Shown: one piece after another, positions 38,001-42,647 of the stretch
Layout: the number at the start of each line of letters is the position of its first letter
How positions within the stretch are numbered: the first letter of the stretch is position 1
Notes under the pieces: model-generated
The model's database searches: none
Seen by the model: the letters and a program-made list of their open reading frames with translations, nothing else
Told to the model about the DNA's origin: nothing
Assembly: GCA_002839855.1 (NCBI GenBank)
Contig: PGYV01000008.1
Location: 62,001-126,000, forward strand
Reading direction: 5' to 3'
From: Candidatus Goldiibacteriota bacterium HGW-Goldbacteria-1
GTDB lineage: Bacteria; Oederibacteriota; PGYV01
Length of the DNA stretch: 64,000 nt
Program-made: the position numbers and the translations under genes

Positions 38001-40350
38001 CAGAATTGCGGGTATGGATTTTAACGATCTGGAAGTGAAATATGCCTATAAAGACAGAAAACTTTTTCTGGAAAAAGCCCTGCTGTACTACAGAAAGACT
38101 TCATTGGATCTGGCGGGAAGTACGGTAACTTTTGCGGATGATAAAACGGTTTTCACCGATATTAAAATGCAGGCACTTGATTATAAACTGCAGGGCAACA
38201 GGCTTAACGGATACCTTGGAATAGCCGGCAGGCTGGTTACCGGCGACAACGCCCTTTTTGACGGTTCGTTTGCGGGCGACGGTTTTCAGTTTAAAAATCA
38301 CACTTTTAACCCGTTTATCATAAAGGTAAATTATTCAAAAGACGGGCTTCTTTTAAATACAAGCAAAGGGGCGTACAGGTTAAAGGGCGATATTGGTTTT
38401 GAAAAAAAATGGACGGACATAAGAAAGTTTGAAGCATTTAATCAGGCGGGTGTAAAAGTAATTAATGCTTCCGGCAGGATAATGTCCGACAGCGGTGATT
38501 CCGCTGTTGATATAAACTGCCAGGAACTTGATCCGCAGCTTATAGACGGCCTTATAGGGCTGGGTTTTTCGTGGGAAGGCACTGCCGCGGGAAATGTAAA
38601 ATTATCCGGAAACGGCAAAGAAGGAATAGGCCTTACAATACAGGTGGCAATAAAAAATGGAAGTTTCGCGGGGATTGAATTTGATGTTTTATCCGGCGTG
38701 CTGTCTTTAAAAAATGACTGGCTTGACATGTCGCCGATTGGGCCGATTATATTAACCAAAGATGATAAATATGAACTGACCCTTGGCGGAAAGATACCTG
38801 TGCCTATGACGGAAGAAGCGGCGGAAAAGATGCGCGGTGAGCAGATGGATTTAAAAGCGCACATAAAAGACGGAGATTTGTCTATTTTAAAATTTCTTGG
38901 TTTCATTGAAGAAGCGCAGGGTGTTACCAATCTTACCGCGCGTATTACCGGGACAAAAGAATTTCCGTCAGTGACAGGCAAGATAGACGTAACGGACGGA
39001 AATATAAAGCTTAAATATCTGTTTAAAGAGTTAAGCCACGTTTACGCTAACATACTTATAAGGGACAATGTAATAGATATATATGACCTTAAGGGGGATA
39101 CGGAACGCGGTACAATTAAGATACAGAACCTTGACGAGAAAAAAGGCGGCATCATGAAGTTTGTCCGCCCGGACGAGGTAAACTGGCGCATAACCAATAT
39201 AGGCGACAGGATAAGGTTCACGGATACACCGTATATGGAATTTTTACGCGGCGACGCGGATATTGACCTTGCCATGACCGGCAAACTGGAAGCTCCTTTT
39301 ATTAAAGGCACCATTAAAGCTTCTGACTTTACCTACCTGTATCCTATTAAGAGCAAAACAAAAGCAGGCGAGGATACCACAATAAAAGACGAGGATAATT
39401 TTGCCAAAAAAATAACGTGGGATGTGCAGTTAACCGGCGGGGACAACGTAAGGTTCTACAGCAATTACCTTAATAATTATGCTGATGTTTATATTAAGTT
39501 TGGCGCTTCCCCTCTGCTTCTTCAGGATAAGGGTAACAGCATGAAGCTTACAGGAAATTTAAATATTATAAGAGGCGTTTATAAATATATGAACACGGAT
39601 TTTATAGTGGATGATTTAAGGGAGTCCAAGGTGGTTTTTGACGGCTCTACAAGGCCGGTCTTGGATGTCTTTGCATCTGCTAAGTTCAGAAGAATGGAAG
39701 TATATAAAGCAAACGGGCAGACAGAGACGATGGACCTTAAGGTTAATCTGCACGCGTACGGAAAGGTGGGCAATTTAAAGATAGACCTCACTTCTGACCC
39801 TATCCTGCCGGAAATAGGAAATGACTATAACAGGCTGCTTTACATAGTTACAGTGGGCAGGGATATGGGGGATACTACAAATTTAAAACCTGAAGATTTT
39901 ACAAAAATGGCGGATGCCATAGCAAGTTTCTGGATAAAAAAAGGGACGGAACAGATTCAGGTGTTTTTACCTGTCTCTGTTTTAAAGATAGACGCCAAGC
40001 TTTCTGAAATTGTAGGTCAGGGAACGGATTCTCCCGAGAGCACAACAAGAACCGCGGAAAAAAAGACGCTGGCAGAAGTGGAAATAGGGCAGTATATAAC
40101 AGATAAGTTTTATCTTGGCTACACGGGAAAACTTGTGGACACCACAGGGATTATGGAAGAAGCGCAGTCAGGGCTTGATTTTGAACATACGCTGGGTATG
40201 GAATATACCCTTGATGATATTAATAAACTTATCTTCCATAAGTCATTCGGAAACCCCTATCTGGGCGGCGATGAACTTTATCTTGGTTATGAATTAAGGT
40301 GGCAGTTTGACAGCTGGGGCGCAAAACCAAGGCCGACGCCGGCGAAGTAA
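35092..40350 (+). CDS. TamB-like translocation/assembly protein (AsmA/DUF490 superfamily)
   Basis: This 1752-residue giant has one N-terminal membrane anchor ([20 protein letters not shown]), then a very long series of beta strands with repeated motifs such as GNLxxxGxxxxP and [10 protein letters not shown]. The TamB/DUF490 domain is in the last 350 residues ([45 protein letters not shown]). TamB-type proteins bridge the periplasm and help transport lipids or assemble outer-membrane proteins. No tamA/bamA-type gene is next to it. The start is TTG 35092, overlapping the clpC stop (TTGA). The C-terminal 12 residues end in a Pro-rich tail. An octamer array begins right after the stop. Confidence 0.9.
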
Positions 40351-40352
40351 AG

Positions 40353-40490
40353 TAGCTGGGCAGCTGGGCAGCTGGGCAGCTGGGCAGCTGGGCAGCTGGG
40401 CAGCTGGGCAGCTGGGCGGCTGGGCGGCTGGGCGGCTGGGCGGCTGGGCGGCTGGGCGGCTGGGCGGCTGGGCGGCTGGGCGGCTGGTTT
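40353..40490 (+). repeat. Tandem octamer array (GCTGGGCA then GCTGGGCG)
   Basis: About 17 units of 8 bp begin 3 bp after the stop codon of the TamB-like gene. The first half is made of GCTGGGCA units and the second half of GCTGGGCG units, a pattern that points to stepwise expansion from two founders. Confidence 0.95.
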
Positions 40491-40493
40491 GGT

Positions 40494-40550
40494 TCTGGTA
40501 GGCGCACCCTTTAGGGTGCGGTAGTTGATTTAGCCCGCGGCAGTTGATTT
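40494..40550 (+). repeat. C-type hairpin repeat with an extra right half (hybrid copy)
   Basis: A C-type hairpin with GCACCC/GGGTGC stem and flanks tctggtagg and ggtagttga occupies 40494-40529. Directly after it comes only the right half of the GCGGG version (tagcccgcggcagttga, about 40531-40547). The two versions were therefore joined in one copy. Confidence 0.85.
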
Positions 40551-41638: not shown

Positions 41639-42217
41639 ATGAAAGACAAGAAGAGTTTATATCTGTTAACCCTGTCAATGGAACTTTCTCTGCCGGTAAT
41701 TGCGTGGCTGGTAATATTCTTTGTGGAAAAGAAAAAATGGTTTGATATTATCAGCATATCTCCTGTTGCTGTACAGCTGTTAGCCGGCACGGGGATAGGT
41801 GTTCTTCTTGCGTTTGCGCTGAACTATCTTGTGCGGATTAATTACTTTAAACCGGTTCAGGAATTGCTGGGTTCGTTATTTAAAATGTTTGATATAAAGC
41901 TGACGGATATGATTATAATCGCGCTGCTTGCGGGATTTTGTGAGGAAATCCTGTTCAGGGTGGTATTGCAGCAGTACTGGGGAATATGGCTGACGTCATT
42001 TGTGTTTATATTAATACACGGTTATTTTAATCCTAAAAGCGTAAGCATCTCGGTCTTCGGCGTTATTATGTTTTTGTTAAGCGTGGTAATGGGGTATTTA
42101 TACCAATATATGGGTTTTTGGGCAGCTGTTTCAATGCACGCGGTTTATGATGTGTTAGCGTTATATCTGTTTAAAAAGTATATATTTATAGGCATAAAAC
42201 CTGTTGACAACATCTAA
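41639..42217 (+). CDS. CPBP family intramembrane metalloprotease
   Basis: The 192-residue membrane protein has about six hydrophobic segments and the CPBP (Rce1/Abi-like) motifs: CEEILFR (E102, E103, R107), FVFILIHGYFNP (H127), and MHAVYDVLALYL (H167, D171). Such enzymes cleave within membranes or serve in bacteriocin self-immunity; its target is unknown. It follows def with no gap. No terminator is visible before the tRNA-Asn gene 47 bp downstream. Confidence 0.88.
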   Translation: MKDKKSLYLLTLSMELSLPVIAWLVIFFVEKKKWFDIISISPVAVQLLAGTGIGVLLAFALNYLVRINYFKPVQELLGSLFKMFDIKLTDMIIIALLAGFCEEILFRVVLQQYWGIWLTSFVFILIHGYFNPKSVSISVFGVIMFLLSVVMGYLYQYMGFWAAVSMHAVYDVLALYLFKKYIFIGIKPVDNI

Positions 42218-42264
42218 ACCATAGGATAATATATAAAATCTATTGAGCATACAATTTAATAAGT

Positions 42265-42554
42265 TCCCTGGTAGCTCAGTCGGTAGAGCATGTGGCTGTA
42301 CACGCGGCGCGTAAGCGCCGAAATTAGCAGCCCTCATCGGAAACGTTGAGGTGAAAAGCGGGTAAATTCAGGGAAACCCCTATGGGGCAATCCTGAGCCA
42401 AGCCTTGAACTGAAAAGTTCATTGAAGGTGCAGAGACTAGACACCCGCCGCCTAAAGCAGAAATGCCATGGTGATGGTATAGTCCGACTCTCCAAGTAAT
42501 TGGAGTCAGATCGTAACCACAGTGTCGCAGGTTCGAGTCCTGCCCGGGGAGCCA
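42265..42554 (+). tRNA. tRNA-Asn (GTT) interrupted by a group I intron
   Basis: The exons are 42265-42299 and 42514-42554. Joined, they give a regular cloverleaf: acceptor TCCCTGG/CCGGGGA, D-arm, anticodon stem TGTGG/CCACA, loop CTGTTAA with anticodon GTT, a 5-nt variable loop, T-stem GCAGG/CCTGC, discriminator G and encoded CCA. The short variable loop excludes tRNA-Tyr, which a naive reading of CTGTA would suggest. The intron splits the anticodon between its second and third base (GT^T). A terminator follows at 42561. Confidence 0.93.
42300..42513 (+). mobile_element. Group I intron (214 nt) in tRNA-Asn
   Basis: A full group I core can be drawn. P1 pairs exon GGCTGT (42294-42299) with internal guide GCAGCC (42327-42332), putting the required T-G pair at the 5' splice site. 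P2 is CCTCA/TGAGG. P3 is GCGGGT (42358-42363) with ACCCGC (42443-42448). P4 is TCAGG/CCTGA, P5 CCCC/GGGG and P6a GAAC/GTTC. P7 is GACTA (42435-42439) with TAGTC (42480-42484). P8 is TGCCAT/ATGGTA, and P9 is TCCAA/TTGGA with a GTAA loop. The last intron base is G (42513). The P1 extension has a GTAA loop too. It resembles the small IC3-type introns of bacterial tRNA genes. No open frame inside, so no homing endonuclease. Confidence 0.92.
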
Positions 42555-42560
42555 AAAATA

Positions 42561-42597
42561 AAAAAGGCCAGCTTAAACGCTGGTCTTTTTTATTTTT
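42561..42597 (+). terminator. Terminator after tRNA-Asn
   Basis: The stem GGCCAGC/GCTGGTC (one G-T pair) with loop TTAAAC is followed by TTTTTTATTTTT, and preceded by an A-run. Confidence 0.9.
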
Positions 42598-42607
42598 ATG
42601 CACTCCG

Positions 42608-42647
42608 TGCCGGGCAGGACTTGAGTCTTGCAATATTTGGTATGTTT
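42608..42647. other. Inverted partial copy of the tRNA-Asn 3' end
   Basis: The stretch ccgggcaggact (from about 42611) equals the reverse complement of tRNA-Asn AGTCCTGCCCGG. The following bases (tgagtcttgc) still resemble the T-arm. It is a degraded inverted copy of the tRNA 3' part, just after the terminator. Confidence 0.55.

Follow-up and report, generated by a model that had tools for sequence, protein, structure and literature searches.

A tRNA-Asn gene interrupted within its anticodon

Which tRNA is encoded at positions 42265–42554 of the DNA analysed here (the whole 64,000-nucleotide stretch, hereafter the window), and how may a gene cut in two inside its anticodon give a chargeable product? 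Direct reading of this segment gives the anticodon GTA, which is misleading, as the original prediction correctly pointed out, and ARAGORN operating without introns registered no tRNA at 42265–42554. In its intron mode the same program reports tRNA-Asn(gtt) with an intron of 214 nt and the insertion position 35-36. The 5′ exon (42265–42299, + strand; tRNA positions 1–35, ending with ...GGCTGT) coincides with the first 35 nt of the intact tRNA-Asn gene of a congener, G001, and the 3′ exon (42514–42554, + strand; from position 36 to the encoded CCA) is identical there. Being joined, they make up 76 nt, which ARAGORN folds as a standard tRNA-Asn(gtt), just as had been supposed for the spliced sequence. 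The intron itself (42300–42513, + strand), which starts with ACACG and has G as its final base, separates U35 from U36 of tRNA-Asn(GUU).

The covariance search proposed for this segment gave a match to the Rfam group I model RF00028, which spans 42290–42506 (+) over the whole model length with 82.5 bits (E=1.9e-19) at a cut-off of 50 bits. Rfam, ARAGORN and the empty site in G001 thus agree with the intron coordinates and the tRNA-Asn host foreseen from the letters alone. A consensus scan revealed a promoter-like site TTGACA-17-TAATAT at 42204–42232 (+), and the sequence contains a terminator-like hairpin GGCCAGC/GCTGGTC followed by a T run at 42566–42593 (+). Both elements, the first upstream and the second 3′ of the same tRNA, together with the end of the upstream gene, are common to the window genome (G000), G001 and another species of the genus, G002.

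Approximately 60 bp past the tRNA, its T-arm recurs in an inverted and degenerate form, GCCGGGCAGGACTTGAGTCTTGCAA (42612–42636). Similar remnants were found 3′ of the tRNA in G001 and G002, and that of the window is possibly a decayed attachment site. An antisense open frame at 42334–42633 (−), running across the intron and the 3′ half of the tRNA (“LAPRAGLEPATLWL”), is a familiar spurious ORF. Another region of the window, 40307–40501, located between two genes, carries a short tandem repeat with a repeated GQLGSWAA-like frame.

Secondary structure and covariation of the intron

All elements named in this section lie on the + strand. P1, its extension and P10 were derived from the sequence. 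P1 is formed by the exonic strand GGCUGU (42294–42299) and the internal guide sequence GCAGCC (42327–42332), with the final U of the former paired to G; the T-G pair at the 5′ splice site and the terminal G of the intron had both been predicted correctly. Terminal G and the GCAG guide are present in 46/46 inserts of the family described below, and in a few other members, with the 5′ exon ending in GACTGT, the fifth pair of P1 is A-C. The loop of P1 contains the extension hairpin GGCGC-GUAA-GCGCC (42306–42319), occupying the position where an HNH ORF is housed in a more distant relative, G005. The P10 strand UUA (42324–42326), which is TTA in the TTAGCAG class of members, faces UAA of the 3′ exon (42514–42516).

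The remaining helices were traced by covariation in an alignment of 27 intron cores. P2 with its GAAA-type loop occupies 42334–42349. The 5′ strand of P3, GCGGG (42358–42362), is paired with CCCGC (42444–42448) in 100% of alignment cells, and double changes were found in 3 of its 5 pairs. Double changes were also registered in 4 of 6 pairs of P4 (42368–42373/42391–42396), in 3 of 4 pairs of P5 lying within it (42377–42380/42384–42387), in 3 of 4 pairs of P8 (42449–42473) and in 5 of 6 pairs of the P9 hairpin CUCCAA-GUAA-UUGGAG (42490–42505). P6 with its extension takes 42398–42428 (CC 42398–42399/GG 42427–42428). The guanosine-binding helix P7, composed of GACUA (42435–42439) and UAGUC (42480–42484), is paired in 99% of cells and has a compensatory change from A-U to U-A in two members.

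RNAalifold applied to the 27 cores predicted 33 pairs with compensatory changes in 23 of them. The named structure, where P7 was treated as a pseudoknot, includes 37 pairs in 8 helices; 98.1% of cells are paired and double changes affect 25/37 pairs. Its covariation score was 0.545 versus 0.190 in shuffled alignments, none of 500 shuffles being as high on any measure, and when the partners were slid by one to three columns pairing fell to 29–49%. The core helices P3, P4, P6, P7 and P8 are preserved as structure, with compensatory changes in each of them. The original assignment to group I is therefore borne out both by the RF00028 match and by covariation of eight helices, P7 among them. The intron is real and very probably active.

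Certain group I introns require the assistance of proteins in vivo (PMC3984707), and one can suppose that proteins, for instance an endonuclease and a ligase, rather than a ribozyme, remove the insert. However, a ribozyme core kept by compensatory changes would be needless for a protein-cut intron, and the guide sequence and terminal G are retained in all members, which makes such splicing scarcely credible.

Relatives with and without the intron

The 290-bp locus was compared with 98 genomes. In G001, belonging to the same genus, exons 1–35 and 36–76 abut directly at the same locus with the same flanks, are 100% identical to those of the window, and no base is lost or added at their junction. 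Judged by this empty site, removal of the intron yields exactly the uninterrupted gene. G002, also of the same genus, bears the intron at 98% identity. In G005, which belongs to the same order but to a different family, identity is 86%, and the P1 loop is longer by approximately 300 bases, located between query positions 43 and 54 and carrying an HNH endonuclease ORF. The match is not a matter of chance: the intron recurs in relatives with 98% and 86% identity, and the corresponding locus of a congener is devoid of it. G000 and G002, on the one hand, and G001, on the other, represent, for a single locus, a natural presence/absence pair. Another intron of the same phylum, found in G017 (L080, 1171–1343) and considered as a group I candidate, turned out to be a group II intron (RF02001).

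A family of introns at the 35/36 site

GTDB genomes were scanned in one pass for 5′ halves of tRNA-Asn not continued by U36, and 62 stretches were collected. In 45 of these, as in the window, a tRNA-Asn gene is divided at precisely the same base by an insert of 193–689 nt; two of them, L126 and L139, are contigs of G002 and G005. RF00028 scores above its cut-off in distant members as well (L084, L085, L098, L117, L118, L138 and L140). The hosts are mostly Omnitrophota, and also Nitrospirota, NPL-UPA2, Lindowbacteria, a delta-proteobacterial MAG and others. The split pattern was matched in 59 of 384 sampled Omnitrophota genomes, these matches being checked in part only. Thus, the family consists of site-specific group I introns widespread across several phyla. 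The supposition that such an insertion would be uncommon and perhaps undescribed survives only in its second half: with at least 46 members found, and common occurrence in Omnitrophota, it is not a one-off, and no paper describing it was found.

Nearly all intron-bearing genomes are draft assemblies or MAGs, and one might suspect an assembly artefact or a chimera. This is already refuted by independent assemblies, in which the same junctions recur in three related species and in some 40 Omnitrophota and others, leaving a negligible chance for such an origin.

Several pattern matches were rejected. In Colwellia and a gammaproteobacterium (L088, L121 and L127) they are tRNA-Asn gene arrays with partial or altered copies in between and contain no introns. 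Bacteroidial candidates L097 and L081/L137 were ruled out as group I introns on inspection; L097 (1735–2079, a Bacteroidia MAG) has tandem tRNA-like repeats with the anticodon arm TTCCG CTGTG CGGAA. Viral contigs L254–L257 and L259 have no intron core. Two further viral contigs, L173 and L174, initially suggested phage tRNA introns. The split gene lies in them between host recR (in L174 also a dnaX-like gene) and a serine recombinase, and they are probably integrated elements with a host flank, not phage tRNA genes. A split tRNA-Asn with its intron and HNH ORF adjoins the recombinase in both (L173, 800–3014, the same as L258; L174, 2900–5227), and the recombinase frame ends within the tRNA in antisense, opposite to the recR side. 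These elements appear to integrate at intron-bearing tRNA-Asn genes.

An HNH ORF of one family, with conserved motifs CxxCGY, EFHH and CANCH, resides in the P1 loop of 23 members out of 46. PHROG HNH endonuclease families match all 12 proteins tested; for the G005 protein the Pfam HNH model alone remained below its cut-off, and the assignment was settled by PHROGs. Proteins of this HNH family are present in 426 phage records and, among viral contigs, in the vicinity of tRNA clusters; in contigs L175–L195 its free-standing HNH genes are scattered through dense tRNA clusters. Within the window intron, frames counted from a start codon do not exceed 4 aa, and hence it has no endonuclease gene; the G002 copy is likewise devoid of the HNH ORF, and no relative of the protein was found in G000. 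On the intron tree ORF presence changed at least 15 times among 46 members, as expected for repeated gain and loss. We infer that the family homes by means of its HNH endonuclease.

Probable dependence of asparagine decoding on the ribozyme

The 2.86-Mb genome G000 is rated 100% complete. It contains no second RF00028 match, and among its 41 ordinary tRNAs above the cut-off, typed by ARAGORN, none is Asn. A second intact tRNA-Asn gene, which would speak against the original prediction, was therefore not found in this genome. Also missing from the tRNAs detected in G000 were Ile-GAT, Ala-TGC and Thr-GGT, which most bacteria are expected to have, so small assembly gaps are possible and a part of the genome may be unassembled. 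An intact tRNA-Asn anticodon-arm pattern was found once in G001 and in none of the 46 intron-bearing genomes, which is support rather than proof, as the pattern is narrow and misses diverged tRNA-Asn genes.

A tRNA-Asn gene could hide in such a gap, and one may then assume that the intron is degraded and inactive, the split gene dead, and asparagine codons read by another, unassembled tRNA-Asn. Yet all core helices pair and covary, the exons are identical to the uninterrupted gene of G001, the promoter-like site and the terminator-like hairpin are kept, in G002, where the intron is 98% identical, an intact copy was not detected either, and the narrow pattern detects no intact copy in any of the 46 genomes; altogether this makes a dead gene highly improbable. 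A split gene as the sole tRNA-Asn found, and the recurrence of this intron at an identical position in approximately 45 other genomes, suggest instead that asparagine decoding in intron-bearing cells probably depends on a mobile ribozyme.

With high confidence we propose that a catalytically competent group I intron resides in the sole tRNA-Asn(GUU) gene found, that it belongs to a family mobile as a whole, and that it is retained by dependence. The pre-tRNA would be transcribed from its own promoter, and the intron would fold into the P3–P9 core. GGCUGU and the guide GCAGCC would align the 5′ splice site with U-G at the cut, and P10 (UAA/UUA) would align the 3′ exon. Guanosine would then be used for the cut after U35, U35 would be joined to U36 and 214 nt released, restoring the loop CUGUUAA and a chargeable tRNA-Asn. 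The site-specific family would move between bacteria, many members by means of the HNH homing endonuclease whose gene lies in the P1 loop. The endonuclease-less copy of the window may persist because loss of splicing would leave the cell without tRNA-Asn, that is, in a presumably essential role.

Since the cut falls inside the anticodon of the sole tRNA-Asn, it is conceivable that the splicing rate serves as a checkpoint, low guanosine or Mg2+ giving less mature tRNA-Asn and less asparagine decoding, and that the intron is kept as a regulator instead of being simply tolerated; we consider this very unlikely.

Probable transfer between phyla

On the intron tree the introns of the window lineage fall inside a clade of 12 rows, otherwise composed of Omnitrophota and one other bacterium (support 100/99), and apart from the tRNA-Ile(CAU) introns of their own phylum (100/100). 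From this topology transfer of the intron between phyla, in either direction, is likely. By the AU test the alternative attachment, with the window clade placed next to tRNA-Ile introns from the same phylum, is not rejected (p 0.346), and the claim that transfer went from Omnitrophota to the window lineage rather than in reverse was therefore dropped.

The same p value also suits a very old intron at 35/36, inherited vertically with many losses, and so does the locus with its flanking genes, which is alike in G000 and G002 and partly in G005. Against such an origin, the distribution is patchy: within the phylum the intron was found in 3 genomes out of 45, and it is absent in the congener G001. 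Moreover, the window introns are nested among those of Omnitrophota, and a homing-type endonuclease is encoded in half of the members. Vertical inheritance is therefore unlikely, and transfer between phyla remains the preferred reading.

Comparison with known bacterial tRNA introns

Bacterial group I introns have been described in tRNA-Leu(UAA), fMet, Ile(CAU), Arg and a few other tRNAs (PMC8450103, PMC4033280, PMC5733544, PMC4853749; reviewed in PMC3984707). In the part of the open-access literature that was searched, we came across no account of a group I intron residing in tRNA-Asn of a bacterium, and since the search was limited to open-access papers, we call it undescribed only provisionally.

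The introns of tRNA-Ile(CAU) (Azoarcus type, subgroup IC3) are likewise compact (~205–230 nt), located in the anticodon loop and end with G, and their P3–P9 core is very similar in sequence to that of the tRNA-Asn intron; they differ in the host tRNA, in insertion after the anticodon (CTCAT|AA) and in the guide sequence. Within the phylum of the window, four other genomes, G024, G030, G033 and G036, have them at this known site (L071, L072, L073 and L078). Their close likeness suggests that the tRNA-Asn intron belongs to subgroup IC3. Another kind of bacterial group I intron does interrupt the anticodon itself, in another tRNA and at another position, and is usually described as old and lacking an endonuclease gene. 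A known homing tRNA intron resembles the present family by its anticodon-loop location, its own homing endonuclease and the coexistence of ORF-bearing and ORF-less copies, but it resides in another tRNA, and HNH in the P1 loop is a feature of the tRNA-Asn intron. Putative group I introns are also known to hide tRNA genes from annotation; these concern other tRNAs and their structure was not determined. Free-standing phage HNH endonucleases beside tRNA clusters (PHROG 2255, 3106) are of the same family as the intron-encoded protein, which shares 56–71% identity with the best phage records, whereas in most viral contigs examined they lie outside any group I intron.

The interrupted gene makes clear for what reason tRNA-Asn of such genomes would escape standard tRNA finders. 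Copies with and without the intron, and with and without the endonuclease, provide a natural set in which one may follow how a ribozyme within an essential gene is gained, decays and comes to be depended upon. Compared with the systems listed above, the intron is a ribozyme of an ordinary kind, present in several phyla and accompanied by an HNH endonuclease family of its own, and it adds to the bacterial group I introns an apparently undescribed host tRNA and an apparently new insertion site, 35/36 of tRNA-Asn.
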